Position numbers and translations under genes: made by a program. Below are positions 321 to 46,692 of a stretch of 64,000 nucleotides of DNA, one piece after another. Source of the DNA: Pseudomonas cavernicola. GTDB taxonomy: Bacteria > Pseudomonadota > Gammaproteobacteria > Pseudomonadales > Pseudomonadaceae. The stretch covers positions 2,682,501 to 2,746,500 of the forward strand of contig NZ_QYUR01000002.1 in the NCBI RefSeq assembly GCF_003596405.1. The letters are read 5' to 3'. Every line of letters starts with the position of its first letter. Position 1 is the first letter of the stretch. Below the pieces are notes generated by a model. It saw only the letters and a list, made by a program, of their open reading frames with translations. It searched no databases and was not told where the DNA came from.

Positions 321-551
321 TCAGCGCGCCTTGCGCTGCTCGGCTAAACGCGCCGCCAACGGTTCCAGTTCAGGAATCGCAGCGTCCGGTAGCCTTCGCA
401 GCACCGCCTGGGTCAGCCGCATCTGGCGGATAAAGCGCCGGCATTTCCAGCAGATCGCCAGATGGGTGCGCACCGCTATCCGCTCGCGAAAGCTCAACTG
501 AGCATCGAGATAATCGCTGGAATGTGCCACCAATTCCTTACAACTCAGCAC
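321..551 (-). CDS. zinc-binding anti-sigma factor (zf-HC2 type)
   Basis: A 76-aa protein with the HxxxCxxC signature of zinc-binding anti-sigma domains (HLAICWKC, about residues 30-37). Such proteins bind and hold the cognate ECF sigma factor in the cytoplasm. There is no membrane segment, so it looks like a soluble anti-sigma rather than a transmembrane one. Its start overlaps the end of the ECF sigma gene by 7 nt, which implies translational coupling and a sigma/anti-sigma pair. What signal it senses is not visible. Family assignment rests on the motif plus the gene pairing. Confidence 0.8.
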   Translation of the reverse strand: MLSCKELVAHSSDYLDAQLSFRERIAVRTHLAICWKCRRFIRQMRLTQAVLRRLPDAAIPELEPLAARLAEQRKAR

Positions 552-1156
552 TGGCCTGTCTCCTCGAAATGTTCCAGGGTGGCAAACACCTTCAGCCGTG
601 CCCGGTGCAGCAATACCCGAACATTGGAGAGCGAGATCTCCAAAAGATTACAGATCTCTTCCAACTCAAGGCCCTGGCGCTCGCGCAGCAGCAACACGCT
701 GCCCTGCAACTCGGAGAGACTACTCAAGGTTTTTTCCAGGCATTCGCGCAGCTCGTCTTCGGTCAGCAAGGCTTCCGGCGAGTCCTGATGCCAGGCAAAA
801 GGCGCCGCCAGCCAGTGGCCGTCTTCGGCAAATCGCGATCCATCGATTGTGCCATGCGGTGCTGGCAGGTCATCCAGCAACACCTCGCGGCGGTTCTGCT
901 TGAGCCGGCTCTTGGCGGTATTGGCGGTGATGGTCAGCAGCCAGGTCTTCAGGCTGGAACGGCCCTGAAAGCCGTCCAGGCTACGGACTACGGCGAGCCA
1001 GGCGTCCTGCACCACCTCATCGGCGTTGCGGCTGCCGACGATGGCATAGGTCACCGCCCGCATGGCGCCCTGGTAGGCCGCGACCAGCTCACGGAACGCC
1101 TGCTGCTCGCCGGCCAACAGGCGAGGCAGCAGATCGGCGTCGAGCGGCTGGCTCAT
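545..1156 (-). CDS. ECF-family RNA polymerase sigma factor
   Basis: A 203-aa sigma-70 family ECF factor. Region 2 is at about residues 10-80 (FRELVAAYQGAMRAVTY, then DEVVQDAWLAVVRSL). Region 4 is the C-terminal helix-turn-helix (GLELEEICNLLEISLSNVRVLLHRAR). It would direct RNA polymerase to a small regulon. The gene starts at the stop codon of the upstream KAS III-like gene (ATG/TGA overlap at 1156) and overlaps the anti-sigma gene downstream, so the three form one leftward unit. In PAO1 the equivalent place, from memory, is PA3285 next to PA3286. The regulon is unknown. Confidence 0.9.
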   Translation of the reverse strand: MSQPLDADLLPRLLAGEQQAFRELVAAYQGAMRAVTYAIVGSRNADEVVQDAWLAVVRSLDGFQGRSSLKTWLLTITANTAKSRLKQNRREVLLDDLPAPHGTIDGSRFAEDGHWLAAPFAWHQDSPEALLTEDELRECLEKTLSSLSELQGSVLLLRERQGLELEEICNLLEISLSNVRVLLHRARLKVFATLEHFEETGQC

Positions 1157-2277
1157 CAGTGTTTACGAAGAATCACGCTGCCGATTGAATAACCGGCACC
1201 GAAGGAGCTGAGCACCCCCAACGCACCGCTCGGCAAATCATCCTGGTTCTTATGAAAAGCGATGACCGAGCCGGCCGAACTGGTATTGGCGTAGGTATCG
1301 AGAATCACCGGTGCCTCATGCGCCTCCGCCTCACGGCCAAGCAGCTTCTTGGTGATCAGCTGGTTCATGCTGAGGTTGGCCTGGTGCAGCCAGAAGCGTT
1401 TGACGTCGGATACGTTGATGCCATTCTCGCGCAGGTGCGTGCCGACCAATTCGGCGACCATCGGGCAGACGTCGCGGAACACCTTGCGGCCTTCCTGCAC
1501 GAACAGTTTGTCCGGCGCACCGATGCCCTCTTCCCCAGCGCGGTTGAGGAAGCCGAAGTTGTTGCGGATGTTGTTGGAGAACTGGGTCAGCAGCTTGGTA
1601 CTGACCACATCGAACTGGTGCTTGGAGGTGGCCAGATCGGCGCGCTCGAGTAGCACGGCGGTGGCCGCATCGCCGAAGATAAAATGGCTGTCGCGGTCAC
1701 GGAAGTTCAGGTGACCGGTGCAGATCTCCGGGCTGACCACCAGCACCGCGCGGGCTTGGCCGAGCTGCACGCTGTTGGTCGCCGCCTGGATCCCGAAAGT
1801 GGCGGATGAGCAGGCCACGTTCATGTCGTAAGCAAAGCCCTGGATACCCAGCGCGGCCTGTACTTCGATGGCCACCGCCGGGTAAGCGCGTTGCAGATTC
1901 GAACAGGCGACGATAACCCCGTCGACATCCGCCGCGGTTTTGCCGGCACGCGCCAACGCTTCTTCAGCCGCGCCGACCGCCATCTGGCAGAGAATGCCCC
2001 ACTCGTCGTTGGAACGTTCCGGGATCCGCGGCGTCATGCGCTGCGGGTCGAGGATGCCGGCCTTGTCCATCACGAAGCGGCTCTTGATGCCCGAGGCCTT
2101 TTCGATAAAGGCACTGCTGGACTCATTCAACGGCTCCAGCTCACCACGTTCGATGGCCGCCGCATTGTCGGCGTTGAATTGCCGAACATAGGTATTGAAG
2201 GATTCCACCAGCTCATCGTTAGAGATGCTGTTTGCCGGGGTATACAGGCCGGTACCGCTGATGACGACGTTATACAC
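1156..2277 (-). CDS. beta-ketoacyl-ACP synthase III family protein (PA3286-like)
   Basis: A 373-aa thiolase-fold condensing enzyme. The catalytic triad is complete: Cys156 in NVACSSATF, His298 in WLHQANLSMNQ and Asn331 in YANTSSAGS. The GTG start at 2277 is chosen because a GAGG ribosome site lies 7 nt upstream and because it gives MYNVVISGTGLYTP, the expected N terminus; a longer reading frame upstream adds non-homologous residues. The P. aeruginosa homologue PA3286 has been reported to condense medium-chain acyl-CoA from beta-oxidation with malonyl-ACP, shunting fatty acids back into synthesis. The nearby fadD and phaJ genes fit that theme. Substrate here is inferred. Confidence 0.88.
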   Translation of the reverse strand: MYNVVISGTGLYTPANSISNDELVESFNTYVRQFNADNAAAIERGELEPLNESSSAFIEKASGIKSRFVMDKAGILDPQRMTPRIPERSNDEWGILCQMAVGAAEEALARAGKTAADVDGVIVACSNLQRAYPAVAIEVQAALGIQGFAYDMNVACSSATFGIQAATNSVQLGQARAVLVVSPEICTGHLNFRDRDSHFIFGDAATAVLLERADLATSKHQFDVVSTKLLTQFSNNIRNNFGFLNRAGEEGIGAPDKLFVQEGRKVFRDVCPMVAELVGTHLRENGINVSDVKRFWLHQANLSMNQLITKKLLGREAEAHEAPVILDTYANTSSAGSVIAFHKNQDDLPSGALGVLSSFGAGYSIGSVILRKH

Positions 2278-2433
2278 GGTCGTTCCTCTTGCAGGCTTAT
2301 TGATCGGAATGGCGGCTATTGTGCCCGAAAACAGTGAAAAACCCCCAGCCTTCCAGGCTGACATTCGTCAGGGCATTATCGGCGGATGCTTTGGCTGAAC
2401 AGTCGTACCGAATGACGAAATGAGGAGAACATC

Positions 2434-4662: not shown

Positions 4663-4838
4663 ACCGTCTGGCTACGACCGGCGCAGACCTCTCCCGTGAG
4701 GGGCGGCCTGCGCTGGCCCGCCGAGTGCATCTGCGGACGCCTACGCGCTGCGCAAGTTGCAAGGTAGCCTGGATATCGACTCGGCGGAAAACCGCTTCGC
4801 GGATTGTCCACCCTACGCAGGCGCATCTGACTTGATCG

Positions 4839-4859
4839 TTCCCACGCTCCGCGTGGGAA
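4839..4859. repeat. REP hairpin
   Basis: Perfect 9-bp stem TTCCCACGC / GCGTGGGAA with a 3-nt loop (TCC). GTTCCCACGCTCCGCGTGGG is a common Pseudomonas REP core, normally mobilised by a RAYT transposase encoded elsewhere; no such transposase is present in this window. Confidence 0.7.
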
Positions 4860-5187
4860 TGCAGCCCTCGACGCTCCAGCGTCCAGCCAGCTATTTCCAC
4901 AGCCCCCCTGGCGCTTGATTGCAGCCTGGCAGGACGGGGGATACCCGCGCCACCTACCCATCTACAACTAGATCATCGCCCTACATGACTTATGCGGCTC
5001 GCTCAGCCTCCGTGCCCCTTAGCCCCAAGGTGGTGCAGGTTCAAGGTTTTGACCAGATGGCCTGTAGCCCAGATTGCCAAGGCAACCACCAGGCACATGC
5101 TCGCGAACGCCAACCAGGCGTTTGGCCACAACAGAGGCATCCCAAACAAGATCAGACTGTCGAGCTAAAGGGGTCGGAGTGATTTAA

Positions 5188-5220
5188 AAATGAAAAAATG
5201 GGCAGATTTGTTTTCTGCCC
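5188..5220 (-). terminator. putative rho-independent terminator (minus strand)
   Basis: Stem GGGCAGA (5200-5206) / TCTGCCC (5214-5220) with a 7-nt loop. On the minus strand it is followed by ATTTTTTCATTTTTA, a good uridine tract. It could end leftward transcripts from hrpA, whose stop is 430 bp upstream, although that distance is long. Confidence 0.5.
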
Positions 5221-5592
5221 CTGACTTAAACGGTGCACGGCCTACGGCGAGTGCACTCTACGTTTCAGATGCCACCAATTAGCTCAATCCGATCATTGAA
5301 AGCCGGGCCGGGATAGCGCCCCTTCAGAAGGCCGAACGTAATCGTTGTGTAGGGGGTTGAGCGGCATGGATGCCGCGAAAGCTGCGATGGGCCAGGGATG
5401 GCCCTTCGCGGCGGACCCTCGGAGCGGCGATGGAGCGAGGGAACCCTGCGCGCAGCGCAGGGCCGGATGGCGGGGCAAGCCCTCTTGGTTACTTCTGGGG
5501 CGACTGCCAGAAGTGACCCGCCATAAGGGCGGAACCGAATCCAAGCGCCGATGAAAGTGCGGTGTTCGAACGCGAATGGTTAGGCCACAACT

Positions 5593-5633
5593 GCCCTCTC
5601 CCCCGCCCCTCTCCCATAAATGGGCGAGGGGAG
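5593..5633. repeat. CCCCTCTCCC palindromic repeat, copy 1
   Basis: An imperfect palindrome (CCCCTCTCCCA-TAA-ATGGGCGAGGGG) just downstream of hrpA. It is related to the copies at 47333-47371 and 47406-47447. Confidence 0.5.
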
Positions 5634-5649
5634 AAAAGCGTTCAGCGGC

Positions 5650-8600
5650 TTAGGCTTCGACCAAGCTCCACTGCTTGCTCACTCGCTTATCCGACACCGG
5701 CAGCTTGGTTCCCAACTGCTGGGCGAACAGCGAGACCCGGTACTCCTCCAACATCCAGCGATAGAGCACCAACTGCGGATCGCGCTTGCCTTCCTGCGCA
5801 TGCTTGGCCGCACGGGCCTGATACTGCGCCCATAACCCCGCCAGTTCGCCACTCCAGACCCGATCTTTCTGCAGCTGCGCGGAAAGCTTGTCGAAGCGCT
5901 GCTCGATGGCTTTCAGATAACGCGGCAACTCCTTCAGCCACTCCGCCGGCGTTTCGCGAACGAAACCCGGATAGACCAGATTGGCCAACTGCTGCTTGAT
6001 ATCGTTGAGCGCCACCGCCTGGGCCAGGTCGATCTTGCCTTTGAAGCGCTTTTGCAAGGCGTGCCAGAGCTTGAGAATCTCCAAGGTCAGCCGGGCCAGG
6101 CGCTCGGCATGCTCGGTCCAGGCACCGCGCTTCTGCTCGGCCAGCGCCGCCAAGCCGACGCCATCGCGCGGCAAGCTGGTTTCGCCATCGAGCACGCAGC
6201 TGTCCAGACTCGCCAGCAGGATGTCTTCGACCAGCGCCTCGACCCGACCCAACTCACGGTGCAACAGGCCCAGGTCGGTCAGCCCCGGCAACTTGCCGCG
6301 CAGGAACTTGGCCGGCTCGGCCAGCTGTTGCAGCAGCAAGCGCTGCAAGGCCCGGCGATGCTGGTACTCGGCTTCGGCCTGGGTCGGGAAGCGCCCCTCC
6401 TTGACCGTCCCGCCCTCTTCCACCAGCGCCGGATACACCGTCATCGACAGCCCGGCGATCTTCTGCTGGGTTTTCTCGGCCACCGCGGCGAACACCTTGG
6501 CCTCCACCGGGCGCTGCTCTTTCTCGGTACGCGGCACCGCCAAGGCCGCCTGACTGGCCTCGGCAAAACGGGCCGTTAGCTCAGCCAGATCGCGGCCTTC
6601 ACCAAGGAACTTGCCCTGGGCATCGACCACTTCCAGGTTCATCTTCAGGTGGCTGTCCAACTGCACCGCGGCCTCGACCCACGCCTCCTCGCTGACGCGC
6701 ACCCCTGTCATCCGTTGCAACTCGCGGCCGAGCGTCTCCGGCAGCGAGCTTTCGGCGAAGCTGATGCGTTGCAGCGCGGCCTTGACGAAGTCGGGTACCG
6801 GCACGAAGTTCTTGCGGATGGCTTTCGGCAGGTTGCGCACCAGGGCGATGCACTTGGCTTCCAGCACGCCCGGCACCAACCACTCCAGGCGCTCAGCCGG
6901 CAGTTGCGGCAACAACGGCGCCGGCACCCGCAGGGTCACGCCATCGCGCGGGTGATTGGGCTCGAAGTGGTAGGTCAACGGCAGTTCCAGCTCGCCCAGG
7001 CGCAATTTGTCTGGATAGTGCGCGGCGGTGACTTCGCTGGCATCGCGCGCCAGCACATCTTCCTCGTGCATGATCAACAATTGCGGGTTCTTCGCGCTCT
7101 CGATCTTGTACCAACTCTCGAAAGTCGCGGTCTGGTGAATCTCGGCCGGCAGGCGTGCTTCATAGAAGGCGAACAGCGTTTCCTCGTCGGCCAGAATGTC
7201 GCGACGGCGGGCCTTGGCTTCCAGCTCATCGAGCAGTTCCAGCAGCTCTTTATTGGCGCTCAAGCACTTGGCGCGGGATTGAATCTCGCCGCGCACCAGG
7301 CCTTCGCGAATAAACAGCTCGCGCGACACCACTGGGTCGATCGGCCCGTAATGTACCGGGCGCTTGCCGATGATGATCAGCCCGTAGAGAGTGATCTGCT
7401 CGTAGGCGACGACTTGCCCACGCTTCTTCTCCCAATGGGGTTCGAAGTGATTCTTCTTGATCAGGTGGCTGGCCAGGGGTTCGATCCAGTCCGGTTCGAT
7501 CTTCGCCACCTGGCGGGCAAACAGCTTGGTGGTTTCCACCAACTCGCCAGCCATCAGCCATTGCGGACGCTTCTTGCCCAGGCCGGATGAGGGGTGAATC
7601 CAGAAACGCCGCTGCCGCGCGCCGAGGTAATCGCCGTCTTCGGTTTTCTGCCCGATCTGACTGAGCAAACCCGACAGCACCGCCTTATGCAGCTTGGGAA
7701 AGTCCGCCGGCTCTTTGTTCAGGCTCAGCTGCAAGTCGCGGCAGATCAGGCTCAACTGACGATGGGAGTCGCGCCACTCGCGCAGCCGCAAATAGTTCAG
7801 GAAGTTCTTCCGGCACCAGCTACGCAGCGCACTGGAGCCGAGCGCCAGGCGTTGCTCTTCGAAACCGCGCCAAAGATTGACCAGCCCGGCGAAGTCGGAG
7901 TCCGCATCCTTCCACTGCGCGTGAGCCTGGTCGGCGGCTTGCTGACGTTCCGGTGGCCGCTCGCGCGGGTCTTGCACCGAGAGCGCGCTGGCGACCACCA
8001 GCACCTCTTGCAGGCTGCCCTGCTTGGCCGCCTCCAGCAGCATCCGGCCCAGACGCGGGTCCACCGGCAGGCGTGCCAGTTGGCGGCCCAGTGGCGTCAA
8101 CTGGCCTTCGCGGTTGACCGCCGACAGCTCCTGCAGCAGGTTGAAACCGTCACTGATGGCTTTGCCATCCGGCGGCTCGATAAAGGGGAACGCATCGATC
8201 TCGCCCAGACGCAGATGGAGCATCTGCAGGATCACCGCCGCCAGGTTGGTCCGCAGAATCTCCGGGTCGGTGAAAGCCGGGCGGCTGTTGAAATCCTCTT
8301 CGCTGTACAGACGCACGCAGAGCCCCGGCTCGACCCGGCCACAACGACCTTTGCGCTGATTGGCGCTGGCCTGGGACACCGCCTCGATCGGCAGGCGCTG
8401 GACCTTGGCGCGGTAACTGTAGCGGCTGATCCGCGCGGTACCGCTGTCGATCACATAACGAATACCCGGCACGGTCAGCGAGGTCTCGGCGACGTTGGTG
8501 GCCAACACCACGCGCCGGCCCGGATGCGACTGGAAAATCCGCTGCTGTTCGGCCGGCGACAGGCGCGCATACAGCGGCAGAATTTCGGTGTGCTTGAGCT

Positions 8601-41461: not shown

Positions 41462-42673
41462 ATGTCAGTCGACTCCTTGTCCGCCCCGCCTGCGGCCGAT
41501 CATCGTGCGCAGTTTCTGGCGCGGCTGGACACCAGCCTCGCCCAGAACACCTTCGTCAAACTGGTGCTCTCGAAATACCGTGGCGATGAGGTGGATCTGC
41601 AGCGCGTAGTCGCTCGCCTGGTCACGGTTCGCGAGCAGCCTTGCCTGTCGTTTGTGTACAGCTACAAGACCCGCGACATCACCAAGAACCTACCCGTGGC
41701 CGAGGCCATTGCCTGCATTGCCGACTTGCTGCCTGCGGCGTTCAAAAACGCCCACCTGCTGTCGCTGACCGATGAGATCCAGTTGGTGTTCGGCAAGAAG
41801 GACAAGAGCAGCCTGTTTGTCGGCCAGGCCGTGCAGCGCGAGACGCCCAGCGTCGAACACAACCGTGAGAAGAAGCGCTTCCTCGAATTGAGCCGGCCGT
41901 TTCTGGCGGATCTGGGGGTGACCACCGCCAAGCATGAGTTGATCCCGGCGATGGCGCGCAAATGGAAGCAGATCAACAAGTTCATCGAAGTCTTTTCCCA
42001 CGCCCTGAGCGCCTCGCCGTTGCGTGAGGACCAAGCCATCCATGCCGCCGATTTCGGCTCCGGCAAAGGCTATTTGACCTTCGCCATGCACGACTACCTG
42101 CGCAGCAGCCTGGGGCTGAACGCGACGGTTACCGGGGTGGAGTTGCGCGAGGACATGGTCACGCTGTGCAACCGCGCCGCCGCGCGCCTGGAGCAGCCGG
42201 GGCTGTCCTTTCAGCACGGCGATGTGCGCACCTATTCGCCCGCGGCCATCGATATCATGATCGCCCTGCACGCCTGCGATGTGGCCACCGATTACGCGAT
42301 CCATCTGGGCATCCGCAGCGGCGCCGCCATCATCATGTGTTCGCCCTGCTGCCATAAGCAGATACGTCCACAGATGCACAGCCCGGCGCTGCTGCGGCCC
42401 ATGCTGCAATACGGCGTACACCTGGGGCAGGAAGCGGAGATGGTCACCGACAGCCTGCGCGCCTTGTTGCTGGAGGCCTGCGGTTATGACACCAAGGTGT
42501 TCGAGTTCGTGTCACTGGAGCACACCAACAAGAACAAGATGATCCTCGCGGTGAAACGCACCGAGCCGGTTAACCCGACTGAGCTACTGGAGAAAATCCA
42601 GGGGATCAAGAGCTTCTACGGCATCGACGAGCATTGCCTGGAAACGCTGTTGAAGGCGGACGGTCATCTTTAA
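41462..42673 (+). CDS. class I SAM-dependent methyltransferase (Methyltransf_32-like)
   Basis: A 403-aa protein. An N-terminal domain of about 190 residues is followed by a Rossmann methyltransferase core: motif I ADFGSGKGYLTFAMHDYL, the acidic end of strand 2 in VTGVELREDMV, and a later IALHACDVATDYAI. A distinctive SPCCHKQI segment resembles the METTL25/Methyltransf_32 group, whose bacterial members are uncharacterised; an RNA substrate is possible. It stands alone between the bra operon and the buf operon, and I see no evidence that it belongs to either. Substrate unknown. Confidence 0.8.
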   Translation: MSVDSLSAPPAADHRAQFLARLDTSLAQNTFVKLVLSKYRGDEVDLQRVVARLVTVREQPCLSFVYSYKTRDITKNLPVAEAIACIADLLPAAFKNAHLLSLTDEIQLVFGKKDKSSLFVGQAVQRETPSVEHNREKKRFLELSRPFLADLGVTTAKHELIPAMARKWKQINKFIEVFSHALSASPLREDQAIHAADFGSGKGYLTFAMHDYLRSSLGLNATVTGVELREDMVTLCNRAAARLEQPGLSFQHGDVRTYSPAAIDIMIALHACDVATDYAIHLGIRSGAAIIMCSPCCHKQIRPQMHSPALLRPMLQYGVHLGQEAEMVTDSLRALLLEACGYDTKVFEFVSLEHTNKNKMILAVKRTEPVNPTELLEKIQGIKSFYGIDEHCLETLLKADGHL

Positions 42674-43086
42674 AACAGGCCGAGAGTAGTCGTGCTTCGG
42701 TTGCAGACCACAAGCCGTCTATTGTCTTTTACCCGCTCACCGAGCCAGCTTATCCCGCACCTGGGGGCGCCTGGACAGCCCGCTCAGGCGGCAGTCAGGT
42801 ATGAGCGTGCGAAGTCGAGAGGTTGTTACAGAATCGTCCACTCATGACTGGGCAGACCAGCGCGTGCCGGCCGCCCATGCCGAAACTGGCCGATTTTCTG
42901 GTCATTTTTTGAAATTGCGCTGTAACAAACCCGACGGGGCTTTCTCTACATGGATAGGCGAGCGACATAGCCTCTCGGTACGAGCAGCGCAGCATGGCAT
43001 CCATTGCGGTCTAGGCTGCGTAGAAGTACCCGGCGCGTTCGACATAAGCCTGAACTCCACCACCCTCGTCTCTGACAGGAGCACAC
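42674..43086 (+). promoter_or_regulatory. upstream region of the bufferin operon
   Basis: A 413-bp gap. The 9-bp sequence TTGTTACAG (42823-42831) recurs as its exact reverse complement CTGTAACAA (42920-42928). GTAAC-type -35 elements are known for the ECF sigma factor that controls buf genes in Caulobacter, so either copy could be a promoter part. Downstream spacing to a -10 is not obvious. A frame open through this region and into bufA is out of phase with it and is not considered coding. The bufA ribosome site AGGAG is at 43077-43081. Confidence 0.45.
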
Positions 43087-43395
43087 ATGATGAAAACCAC
43101 CCCCTCCAGCACCCTCCAAGCGGCAGCCCTGGCACTTGCACTGGGCAGTGCGCTGACCATCGCTGCCGCGCCGCTCACCGCTCAGGCCGCCGACACCGAG
43201 AAATGTTTCGGTGTAGCGCTCAAAGGCAAGAACGATTGCGCCTCGGGCGCCGGCACCACCTGCGCCGGCACCGCGAAAAAGGACCATCAGGGCAACGCCT
43301 GGAAGCTGGTGCCCAAGGGCACTTGCGAAAAGACCGCCTCGCCGACTTCGCCGACCGGTTTCGGCCAGCCCCAGGCCTACAAGGAAAAGGCCTGA
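43087..43395 (+). CDS. bufA: bufferin precursor peptide BufA (DUF2282)
   Basis: A 102-aa DUF2282 protein: a Sec-type signal peptide to about residue 35 ([15 protein letters not shown]), then a core with four cysteines at 40, 51, 59 and 80 ([34 protein letters not shown]). This is the pattern of type 1 bufferins, RiPPs in which the two central Cys are converted to thiooxazole groups by a DUF692 enzyme and which bind copper in the periplasm. A Thr/Ser/Pro/Gly tail (residues 83-102) follows the last Cys. It is the first gene of a four-gene operon and has AGGAG 5 nt upstream. Metal binding is inferred from the family. Confidence 0.88.
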
Positions 43396-43419
43396 TCACC
43401 CCAGGCCGGTGTGCTAACG

Positions 43420-44328
43420 ATGAAGCCTGATACGCCTTCCTTCGCCGTGCACAGCGGCACTCCCGCGTGCGCGGCAAGCCTGCCCGCACGCGCCGGGCTG
43501 GGGCTCAAGCCTCAGCATTTTCGGGAAATACTCGAGACTGCGGCCGACATCGGCTTCTTTGAGATACATGCGGAGAATTACATGGTGGAAGGCGGCCCCT
43601 TCCACCACTTCCTCGGCCTGATCCGCGCACGCTACCCGCTGTCTTTGCACGGTGTAGGCCTGTCCATCGGCGCCGAAGGGCCACTCGATGAAACTCATCT
43701 GGATCGTCTCGCCGAGCTGATCGAGCGCTATGAGCCGCAAGCGTTTTCCGAGCATCTGGCCTGGTCCAGCCATGGTGAGCTGTTTCTCAACGATCTGCTG
43801 CCCGTCGCTTACGATGACGCCACGCTGACCCGCGTCTGCGAGCATATCGACCGGCTTCAGACACGATTGCAACGCCGCATGCTGCTGGAGAACCCGGCCA
43901 CCTACGTCGAGTTCACCTGCTCGACCATGGATGAGGCGGCCTTTATCGCCGAGATAGTCCGGCGCACCGGTTGTGGCCTGCTGCTCGATGTCAACAACGC
44001 CTATGTGTCCAGTATCAATCACCATCGCGATGCTTTCGCTTACATCCGCGCCCTGCCCTTGAGCGCCGTAGCCGAGATTCATTTGGCGGGTTTCTCCGAG
44101 GATATTGATGGCGCAGGTGACCGCCTCTTGATCGATAGCCACGGAGCCGCGGTCGATGACGCAGTGTGGACGCTCTATGCGCAGGTTCTGCAACTGATCG
44201 GCCCAACCCCCACACTGATCGAACGCGACAACCAGGTGCCAGCCCTGGGCGTCCTGCTCGCCGAGGCGCGACATGCCGAGCACCTGTTGAACGGTCGGTT
44301 GGCGAACCCGGTTGAGGCTCTGGCATGA
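43420..44328 (+). CDS. bufB: bufferin-modifying MNIO enzyme BufB (DUF692)
   Basis: A 302-aa DUF692 protein, a multinuclear non-heme iron-dependent oxidase on a TIM barrel. Metal-site and family motifs are all present: [71 protein letters not shown] and DSHGAAVDD. It is expected to oxidise core cysteines of BufA. ATG 43420 is preferred; a GTG at 43411 in frame is an alternative. It lies 24 bp after bufA, and its stop overlaps bufC by 4 nt. The related MbnB acts in methanobactin synthesis. Confidence 0.9.
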
Positions 44329-45113
44329 ACACCCAGCCCGCCTTCGTCGCCGCGCTGCTTGACCCTGACCGGCCCTGCCCGCGTGGTCTGAAAACCTGGA
44401 ACGGCTCGGACCCAGCCAGCCGCTTCGCGGTCTACCGCAACAATCTGTTCAACTCGCTGATCGACGCGTTGGCGGACAGCTATCCGGTGGTCAGCGAACT
44501 AGTAGGTGAGACGTTCTTTCGCGCCATGGCCCATGCCTACGTGCAGGCCTACCCGCCCCGCTCGCGCCTCCTCGTTCGCTACGGCGAACACTTTGCGCCC
44601 TTCATCGAGAGTTTCGAGCCCGCCCGCAGCCTGCCCTACCTTGCCGATGTGGCGCGCCTCGAAGCGCTGCGCGTCCAGGCCTACCATGCCGCCGACCTCG
44701 CACCGCTGGCAGCGCAGGAGATTGCTGTCGTGTTGGCTAGGCCGGAGTGTCTGAGCAACCTGGTGTTCCACTTGCACCCCTCGCTCGGCGTGCTCGGCTC
44801 GCCCTTTGCGGTGGTCTCACTGTGGGCGGCCCATCAGGGCGAACTGGCGCTCGAGACAGTCGACCCACTGCAACCGGAAAACGCCCTGGTGCTGCGCAGC
44901 GACCTGCAGGTTGCAGTCATCGCCGTGCCGACCGGCAGCGTGCAGTTCATCCGCCGCCTGCAACAAGGCATGGCTTTGGGGCTCGCCGCCGAGCAGGCGC
45001 ACACCGCCGACGCGGATTTCGACCTGAGCGCCTGCCTGGCCCTGCTGATCCGCGGGGGCGCCATCACCCATTTGCATCAGCCACACCAGACCACTACAAG
45101 GCCACCGCTATGA
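44325..45113 (+). CDS. bufC: bufferin MNIO partner protein BufC (DUF2063)
   Basis: A 262-aa protein with the N-terminal DUF2063 (HvfC/BufC) domain: [40 protein letters not shown] and [20 protein letters not shown] are the conserved helical part (residues 5-95). The C-terminal half has a RiPP recognition element-like fold in this family and presents the precursor to the DUF692 enzyme. It is translationally coupled to both bufB and bufD by ATGA overlaps. Its only expected role is with BufB. Confidence 0.88.
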
Positions 45114-45619
45114 ACGCTCCTGCACGGCTCGAAAGCGCTGCATTTCCCGCTCGCCTGATCGCCCGGCTCATCGATCTGTGCCAGCGTATCCCGCACAGCC
45201 TGATCGCTTTCATCGGGCGCTTTTCCATCGCCGCGGTGTTCTGGAAATCCGGACAGACCAAGATCGAAGGCCTCGCCATCGATCTGGTTTCCGGGACCTT
45301 CGAACTGGGCATGCCGCGACTGGCCGACTCAACCATTCCGTTGTTTACCAGTGAGTACCACTTGCCCTTGGTCTCAGCCGAACTGGCGGCGCACCTCGCG
45401 GCGTTCAGCGAGCACCTATTCCCTGTGCTGATCCTGCTCGGCTTCGCCACACGCTTCTCGGCGCTGGCCCTGTTCGGTATGACGCTGACAATCCAGCTCT
45501 TCGTCTATCCAGACGCCTACCCGACCCACGGCACCTGGGCCGCCGTACTCCTCTATCTGGTCGCCCGCGGGCCCGGGGTCCTGTCTATCGACCACCTGAT
45601 CGCCAAGCACTACCGCTAG
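45110..45619 (+). CDS. bufD: DoxX-family membrane protein BufD
   Basis: A 169-aa DoxX protein with four predicted helices. It opens [20 protein letters not shown], then FIGRFSIAAVFWKSGQTKIEG, LFPVLILLGFATRFSALAL and a final YLVARGPGVLSIDHLI, all typical of DoxX proteins in buf/hvf (DUF2282-DUF692-DUF2063-DoxX) operons. It overlaps bufC by 4 nt and ends the operon. It is an inner membrane partner, perhaps acting in redox or export; its role is not settled in the family. Confidence 0.85.
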   Translation: MNAPARLESAAFPARLIARLIDLCQRIPHSLIAFIGRFSIAAVFWKSGQTKIEGLAIDLVSGTFELGMPRLADSTIPLFTSEYHLPLVSAELAAHLAAFSEHLFPVLILLGFATRFSALALFGMTLTIQLFVYPDAYPTHGTWAAVLLYLVARGPGVLSIDHLIAKHYR

Positions 45620-45676
45620 CCTGCTGTCGCTCCTACAAGAGCAAAGGCGCTGTATGCAGGCCGTTATAGGACGCTC

Positions 45677-46576
45677 CTACAGGCCATCCAACGCCCGGCG
45701 GCTCTGCTCGAACCAGGCCAGCAGATAATCCACCAGTACCTGCGTACGCTTGGGTAGCCCGCCCTGGTAGGGATGCACCAGAAATACCGGGGTGCTGCGC
45801 GTCTGATAATCGCGCAGCAACCAGACCAGGCTGCCGTCAGCCAACTCGTTGTGGAGCATGTAGGACGGCAGGCGGGCGATACCGGCGCCAGCCAGTGCCG
45901 CCTTCTTCAGCAGGGTGTAGTGATTGCTCGCCAAGGGCCCCGTCACCCGTACCCGCGACAGTTCGTGCTGGCGGTGGTAAAGCCACTCCTCGGGGCCGCT
46001 GTAATGACTGTTCAACAAACAGACGTGGGTGCTCAGCTCCTCTGGCTGCACAGGCTCGGTGTGTTGCTGCAGATAGCCTGGGCTGGCGCAGGTCAGCTCC
46101 TGCATGGAGAACAACGGCCTCGCCACCAACCGATCATCCTTCTGCACACCGGAGCGAATCGCCAGATCGAAGCCATCGGCCACCAGATCGCGATAACCAT
46201 TGTTCAGCTCCAGCTCGATCCGCACTTGGGGATAGCGCTGGGAGAAGTCCAGCAGCAACGCATCGAAGAAGGTCTCACCGAGGGACACCGGCACCGTGAT
46301 CCGCACCGTGCCGGCCGCCTCATCCTTGAGCCGCGCCAGGGTCTGCCGTGCGCGCGTCGCCTGGGCAGTCAGCGCCTGGGCTTCCGGCAGCAGCGCAGCA
46401 CCGGCGGCGGTCAGGGAAAGCCGGCGCGTGGTGCGGTGCAGCAGGGTCATGCCCAGCACTTGCTCCAACAGGCGAATACGCTTGGACAGCTGCCCCTTGC
46501 TGCATCCCAGACGCTCGGCGGCGCGGGTAAAGCTGCCGACCTCAATTAGCGTGGCAAAGGCTGCCAGATCATCCAT
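45677..46576 (-). CDS. LysR-family transcriptional regulator
   Basis: A 299-aa LysR regulator of the CrgA/PtxR-like branch. The HTH is at residues 1-60 (FATLIEVGSFTRAAERLGCSKGQLSKRIRLLE, HRTTRRLSLT), followed by the effector domain with VRITVPVSLGETFFDALL and GYRDLVADGFDLAIRSG. ATG 46576 is used; a TTG at 46585 with AGGA 7 nt upstream is equally possible. It is divergent from a short-chain dehydrogenase gene with about 115 bp between, the usual arrangement for a regulator and its target. Effector unknown. Confidence 0.88.
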   Translation of the reverse strand: MDDLAAFATLIEVGSFTRAAERLGCSKGQLSKRIRLLEQVLGMTLLHRTTRRLSLTAAGAALLPEAQALTAQATRARQTLARLKDEAAGTVRITVPVSLGETFFDALLLDFSQRYPQVRIELELNNGYRDLVADGFDLAIRSGVQKDDRLVARPLFSMQELTCASPGYLQQHTEPVQPEELSTHVCLLNSHYSGPEEWLYHRQHELSRVRVTGPLASNHYTLLKKAALAGAGIARLPSYMLHNELADGSLVWLLRDYQTRSTPVFLVHPYQGGLPKRTQVLVDYLLAWFEQSRRALDGL

Positions 46577-46692
46577 CTCGCTCAAGATTGTTTCCTATTG
46601 AGAACCAAATGTTTCTGATTGGCCGGATTATCAGCGACAAATCGCACTCTACACTAAACGCTGTGGTAATCACTTCATCCAGGAGCACCTCC

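Follow-up and report, generated by a model that had tools for sequence, protein, structure and literature searches.

A Buf1 bufferin operon of Pseudomonas cavernicola and a candidate ECF sigma factor that may control it in trans

We analysed a 64,000-nucleotide stretch of the Pseudomonas cavernicola genome (assembly GCF_003596405.1, contig NZ_QYUR01000002.1, positions 2,682,501 to 2,746,500 of the forward strand), called the window here, and found that its positions 43087-45619 hold a complete bufA1-bufB-bufC-doxX operon of the Buf1 class of bufferins. A preliminary description, made from the letters alone, had recognized a bufferin-type operon (DUF2282-DUF692-DUF2063-DoxX) for a ribosomally synthesized and post-translationally modified peptide, with an intact MNIO enzyme and start/stop overlaps in the last three genes. 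All four genes lie where they had been placed and match their families above the cut-offs (Table 1), the same 4-base overlap (ATGA) is present at bufB/bufC and at bufC/doxX, and both family models and relatives back the Buf1 assignment. Homologues of the precursor numbered 5175 (E <= 0.001), and several of the closest were named 'BufA1 family periplasmic bufferin-type metallophore'. DUF2282 genes were present in 28 of the 57 genomes searched, own genome counted, and 28 stretches were fetched: 15 window-type bufA1 loci, seven other Pseudomonas bufA1 loci, three loci from other families, the BufA2 locus of the same genome (L058), and two stretches without a bufB match (L059 and L060). The A-B-C-doxX order was kept in all 15 window-type loci, and because of this identical order and the number of precursor homologues we conclude that the operon is not a chance arrangement.

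Table 1. Features of the window treated in the text, numbered from the first letter of the window
Feature	Position	Strand	Evidence or remark
bufA1, DUF2282 bufferin precursor, 102 aa	43087..43395	+	PF10048 84.6 bits, cut-off 22.4
bufB, MNIO enzyme (MbnB/TglH/ChrH family), 302 aa from ATG	43420..44328	+	PF05114 342 bits
bufC, DUF2063 partner protein, 262 aa	44325..45113	+	PF09836 97.4 bits, cut-off 27.2
doxX, DoxX-family membrane protein, 169 aa	45110..45619	+	PF07681 53 bits, cut-off 23.6
ECF-sigma-type promoter element TGTAAC-N16-TCTCTA	42921..42948	+	138 bases 5' of bufA start codon
ECF sigma factor, 203 aa; proposed trans-acting operon regulator	545..1156	-	PF04542 and PF08281 over cut-off
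Anti-sigma factor, 76 aa, GTG start, zf-HC2 type (HLAICWKC)	321..551	-	overlaps sigma gene end
Ketoacyl-ACP-synthase-III-like gene (presumed name)	1156..2364	-	directly before sigma gene
LysR-family regulator gene	45677..46585	-	PF03466 and PF00126 over cut-off; convergent with doxX

The enzyme and its partner stand in bufABC order, and the enzyme belongs to the bufferin-maturase group. In the NCBI family model search bufB, for which an alternative GTG start is possible at 43411, reached 378.3 bits against the NCBIfam bufferin-maturase model NF050167 MNIO_BufB (cut-off 310) and stayed below the cut-offs of the HvfB, ApyH, MbnB and ChrH models, while bufC (44.6 bits, 142 required) and doxX (37.3 bits, 80 required) were below the thresholds of the HvfC and HvfX models. 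By sequence, bufB matched PDB entry 3bww (E 4.6e-34) and bufC matched no PDB entry; PHROGs returned no match for bufB and none for the methyltransferase gene upstream. The motifs HGVGLS, EHLAW, LENPA, LDVNN, IHLAG, DSHG and IERD of bufB are intact, and we take the iron ligands to sit in these motifs.

The precursor carries Cys at positions 40, 51, 59 and 80, as described before, and these four residues were invariant in 26/26 aligned precursors (25 relatives and the window). A putative signal peptide was seen by inspection and alignment (a hydrophobic stretch and A-Q-A ahead of residue 35, with cleavage near 34/35). The Ser/Thr/Pro/Gly tail after the last Cys, recommended earlier for comparison with other bufferins, has now been so compared, and it is not free low-complexity sequence: SPTGFGQ was conserved in 16/16 window-type precursors and the form TP[NK]G[MF]G in 7/7 other aligned Pseudomonas BufA1 precursors, and the tail motif was not present in the three aligned precursors from other families. 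Within this comparison, which did not include the Caulobacter sequence, the tail is a Pseudomonas feature.

Upstream of bufA1 we found a promoter element of the type read by extracytoplasmic function (ECF) sigma factors, with a single match in the window against 0.02 expected. The alignment of 16 upstream regions had one conserved feature, TGTAAC followed about 16 bases on by TCTCTAG, and TGTAAC and CTCTA were both exact in 14 of them. A search of 59 genus genomes with the strict form TGTAACN{15,17}TCTCTAG gave 25 matches, spread over 22 genomes, and 24/25 lay directly 5' of a bufferin precursor gene (19 BufA1, 5 BufA2), at 52-67 bases from the start codon and with a spacer of 16 in 23/24. One strict match, in G012 (L087), was judged to be chance. 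The reversed control pattern gave 18 matches in 15 genomes, and none of the 18 had an MNIO place closer than 1 kb (compared by eye). The number of strict matches alone (25 vs 18) is not striking; their placement is. A sigma-70 promoter scan of 42600-45760 found no site, and a terminator scan of the same region gave five terminator-like sites against 2.4 expected. One of these, a hairpin with a T run at 42887-42904, lies just 5' of the element, which fits an operon with a promoter of its own. Between doxX and lysR, the terminator and hairpin scans found no terminator-like site and no strong hairpin.

The candidate reader of this element lies in the window itself. PF08281 gave 23 matches in the own genome, 16 of them over cut-off; 11 loci were inspected, and several proved not to be sigma factors. 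The matches nearest the operon lay some 42 kb ahead of it (window 590-748) and 68 kb beyond it. The former belongs to an ECF sigma gene whose end overlaps the gene of a small zinc-finger anti-sigma factor (L210 6322-6552; NF052368 antisigmaE 60.1 bits, cut-off 50; PF13490 30.7 bits, cut-off 22.2), an arrangement that is a trait of the sigma-E/RpoE2 type. The gene directly before it, which we take to be ketoacyl-ACP-synthase-III-like, holds the same place in 25 loci with an MNIO gene. Judged by the PA3286-PA3285 neighbourhood, the sigma gene is presumably the orthologue of P. aeruginosa PA3285. PA3285 and Neisseria RpoE have been placed in one group, ECF293 (PMC8999054).

We then compared loci around the sigma gene (best 80 of 339, from named genomes, with 6 kb flanks, some shorter), and an MNIO gene was present downstream on the same strand in 25/80. 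The distance from the end of the sigma gene to the MNIO gene was 0.6-1.1 kb in 15 of the 25 and 2.5-5.0 kb in the other 10; EGKCG-repeat precursors were seen in 15/25, and none passed the frame filter in the remaining 10. In G012 the two genes are about 3 kb apart on one strand. A TGTAACG element was located 286-427 bases before the MNIO gene in 25/25 of these sigma-linked loci, and its -10 region read GTCTAGTG in 7, CTCTATTG in 2, GTCCATT in 10 and GTCAATTG in 6. On this sequence evidence we infer that the sigma factor of the window would read the bufA1 promoter in trans.

The distribution of the two features among genomes is consistent with this step. An orthologue of the sigma factor (E < 1e-99) was present in 33/59 genus genomes, namely in 23/24 genomes with the bufferin element (assigned by hand: 21 with strict matches before a precursor and the near-matches G000, G004 and G031, which came from the alignment only and were not sought in the other 35 genomes) and in 10/35 without it (Fisher p 1.3e-7). 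Among MNIO-bearing genomes only, the figures were 23/24 and 9/23 (p 2.8e-5); both statistics ignore kinship, the first of several points that weigh against control by this sigma factor. G035 carries both the element and an operon of the window type, but orthologues of the sigma factor and of the gene next to it are both missing; its assembly is in 530 contigs, and the absence is therefore either true or an assembly gap. Conversely, ten genomes encode the sigma factor but lack the element in the form written here, the one form sought in them, and the own genome contains further ECF genes, such as those of L101 and L102. The TCTA of the -10 is common to only 9/25 sigma-linked elements, whereas the -35 is common to all 25. 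In the alignment L038 reads CTCAA and L053 TGTAAT in place of the consensus, and the leader of the window operon (42949-43086, 138 bases) is longer than the 52-67 bases of the 24 relatives. Moreover, PA3285 has been listed without an anti-sigma factor and predicted under PvdS (PMC8999054), and in 2013 it was reported to have neither an associated anti-sigma factor nor an assigned function (PMC3832394), whereas the sigma factor of the window has an anti-sigma partner.

Two of these points, the element of G035 without a sigma orthologue and the differing -10 of most sigma-linked elements, could also mean that recognition of the element falls to a classical copper regulator (such as CopRS or CueR) or to a different DNA-binding protein, with the ECF linkage elsewhere unrelated, and a copper peptide as the proposed product would suit this. 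We consider it unlikely, given the two-box ECF form, the fixed 16-base spacer and the -35 of the Caulobacter SigF consensus; the same -35 also precedes MNIO genes behind the sigma gene and msrB genes. That consensus is GTAACC-N16-CGAA (PMC3511200), and the element of the window shares its -35 but has CTCTA instead of CGAA at the -10. SigF-type sites do occur in the genus: TGTAACC-N16-CGAA together with a divergent ECF sigma gene was found in 5/7 other Pseudomonas bufA1 loci (L033, L034, L035, L044 and L048), with the sigma gene of L034 confirmed by family models. These five loci have BufA1, MNIO, DUF2063 and DoxX in common with the window, but their sigma gene stands beside the operon, while the window operon has no linked sigma gene. 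Control of the NrsF type was examined for the window operon and rejected: NrsF had no match in the own genome, and sigF/nrsF are not beside the operon.

The own genome also contains genes that we take to be AlgU- and SigX-like, and two further ECF genes. Any of these factors could be the reader, the more so as the consensus for SigX 'remains not precisely defined' (PMC7641640) and the SigX of B. subtilis has TGTAAC as its -35 (PMC12153292). However, the AlgU consensus GAACTT-N16/17-TCTNN has a different -35 (PMC7641640), and the AlgU-like match is also found in genomes without the bufferin element. We judge another ECF factor of this genome to be quite improbable as the reader, AlgU or SigX being less likely than the sigma factor of the window.

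The preliminary description had stated that no regulator gene is beside the operon. This does not hold: a LysR-family gene adjoins it (Table 1), and the upstream ECF-type element and the trans-acting sigma/anti-sigma candidate had been missed as well. The LysR gene is kept next to the operon in 14/15 window-type relatives, which would fit regulation by the adjacent LysR protein, but it is convergent with doxX, a long way from the promoter of bufA, and each of these 14 loci also has a divergent short-chain-dehydrogenase-like gene (named by inspection) beside it. As a rule, LysR proteins regulate the gene that diverges from their own. The LysR gene is probably paired with the dehydrogenase-like gene, and its control of the operon appears very improbable.

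Other genes of the own genome carry related elements, and they bear on what the sigma factor of the window might control. The CTCTA and GTCTA forms together gave seven matches, and five of these lie 29-138 bases before the start codons of bufA1, bufA2, a periplasmic msrBA, a second msrB and an arsS-like gene. The names msr, glutathione peroxidase and fimV are ours, given by inspection. The looser CTCTA form matched four times (bufA1, bufA2, the arsS-like gene and fimV), and the match inside fimV (L066) was judged to be chance. The GTCTA form matched three times, against 10 matches for its reversed control; TGTAAC-N17-GTCTA is located 29 bases 5' of an msrB with a Tat signal, followed by an exported msrA (L211 1501-2762), and 77 bases 5' of the second msrB, which has no signal peptide and is followed by a glutathione-peroxidase-like gene (L213 1501-2001). 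The third match (L212), without an obvious target, was judged to be chance.

The CTCTA-form element before bufA2 is 64 bases 5' of that gene (L058). The operon there is the second MNIO operon of the genome (L058 6661-8610; G000:C2 ~1136902-1138851), with a 6-Cys BufA2 precursor, an MNIO and a DUF2063 gene; the precursor reached 100.1 bits against NF050166 (cut-off 60) and 18.2 bits against DUF2282, under the cut-off of 22.4. Beyond DUF2063 we observed a cyclopropane-fatty-acid-synthase-like gene and then a convergent cardiolipin-synthase-like gene, both named by inspection. In the case of the arsS-like radical SAM gene (TIGR04167 450 bits, cut-off 300), a TGTAAC-N17-CTCTA element lies 30 bases 5' (L065/L061), which makes this locus a possible further member of the regulon; the gene is followed by an arsenite-methyltransferase-like gene (L065 1592-3793).

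Elements of the same type before msr and arsS-like genes could indicate that the peptide deals with something other than copper, be it a different metal or a stress without a metal (gold, mercury, arsenic, hypochlorite). Gold-induced 'gig' operons are indeed bufferin clusters, and MerC fusions also exist (PMC12452194). On the other side, the Buf1 bufferin of Caulobacter chelates Cu(I) and Cu(II) and aids growth in copper excess (PMC12452194), and we find the non-copper explanation somewhat doubtful. By analogy with this Caulobacter bufferin, it can fairly be inferred that the operon of the window would buffer copper via thiooxazoles.

Further, we propose the following course of events, whose modification and copper steps are drawn from published work on relatives. 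Thiol-oxidising or metal stress (copper can cause thiol oxidation) would make the zinc-finger anti-sigma factor free the sigma factor, which would then read the ECF-type promoter in trans and express bufA1-bufB-bufC-doxX; the same sigma factor would also switch on the BufA2 operon and the methionine sulfoxide reductase (Msr) genes. A BufB-BufC complex may modify the precursor in the cytoplasm at Cys51 and Cys59, converting them into copper-binding thiooxazoles, and the peptide, exported by Sec with a Cys40-Cys80 disulfide, would buffer periplasmic copper. In this way the peptide would bind copper while Msr repairs methionines. We hold it probable that these parts belong together, namely a Buf1 operon, copper buffering by thiooxazoles, and control in trans by the ECF sigma/anti-sigma pair of the window. 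The previously missed promoter element and sigma pair suggest thiol or oxidative stress as an input no less than a classical copper sensor.

On balance we also lean slightly towards a wider hypothesis, in which one Pseudomonas ECF sigma factor with a thiol/zinc anti-sigma factor controls in trans several unrelated MNIO operons (those of the DUF2282 bufferin, the 6-Cys bufferin and, in some species, a linked EGKCG-repeat precursor) as well as periplasmic and cytoplasmic Msr. Bufferins would then be one arm of a regulon for oxidative protein damage that copper can trigger, and not of a CopRS/CueR regulon. If the sigma link is true, it offers a concrete and easily tested bufferin regulator for bacteria without the sigF-nrsF pair, and it would account for bufferin operons without a sigma gene next to them.

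Some further observations concern the surroundings of the operon and the fetched stretches. A methyltransferase-like gene (PF13679, 41462-42673) lies between ABC transporter genes and bufA, and none of the 28 fetched stretches contains a match to it at E <= 1e-5. L037 and L046 hold rearranged clusters, in which bufA and doxX are followed by a gap of about 1.2 kb and then by MNIO and DUF2063. L059 (G010) contains at 4824-6308 a 495-aa open frame with a DUF2282 domain, possibly a described bufferin fusion protein.

As a cluster, the operon is of an already known kind, because of the named BufA1 homologues, the published Buf1 clusters (PMC12452194) and the 'Pep1' cluster (PMC8719888). The promoter signature and the sigma wiring are the part that looks new, since we did not find them in print in the literature searched; the search, with subscription papers mostly outside its scope, returned no report tying the sigma factor of the window to bufferin operons. 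The Buf1 core genes of Caulobacter vibrioides are a signal-peptide precursor with four Cys, an MNIO, a DUF2063 partner and DoxX, in bufABC order, with the modification on the two central Cys and a disulfide between the outer Cys (PMC12452194), and the window operon has a precursor with four Cys and a putative signal peptide, and the same MNIO, DUF2063 partner, DoxX and gene order; the name captophorins has also been proposed (PMC13097082). In P. fluorescens, 'Pep1' consists of DUF2282, DUF692, DUF2063 and DoxX, the gene set of the window operon, and 'Pep2' of a short peptide, DUF692, DUF2063, a methyltransferase and a cardiolipin synthase, resembling the BufA2 locus L058 (PMC8719888). Pep1 and Pep2 were correlated with pathogen suppression, and the passages on them give no regulation (PMC8719888).

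The closest regulatory counterparts are Neisseria sigma-E and Haemophilus RpoE2, which likewise pair an ECF sigma factor with a small cytoplasmic anti-sigma factor and have msrAB among their targets. In Neisseria, sigma-E and its anti-sigma factor MseR control their own operon (with doxX and three then-hypothetical genes among its members) and msrA/msrB, and in an mseR mutant doxX and the three hypothetical genes of the sigma-E operon were up 12-36 fold and msrA 80 fold (PMC2893595, PMC3240639). NGO1945, in the gonococcal sigma-E gene range, is a DUF2063 protein (PMC2954202), and the gonococcal sigma-E operon therefore presumably holds an MNIO cluster. In H. influenzae, msrAB is under RpoE2/HrsE, which responds to hypochlorite; the MNIO operon of that species goes unmentioned in the passages (PMC7907618). 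The Neisseria promoter (-35 GTMAGBWTT, -10 CGTCTAAH, spacer 12-13; PMC2893595, PMC3240639) resembles 7/25 Pseudomonas sigma-linked elements in its -10 CGTCTA, whereas its -35 and its spacer of 12-13 bases differ from the TGTAAC-N16 of the window. Unlike in Neisseria and Haemophilus, the proposed targets of the window sigma factor lie away from the sigma gene, and precursors of the DUF2282 (Buf1) and 6-Cys (Buf2) kinds are among them. If true, the sigma link would tie copper-chelating peptides to methionine and thiol repair in Pseudomonas, as in Neisseria.

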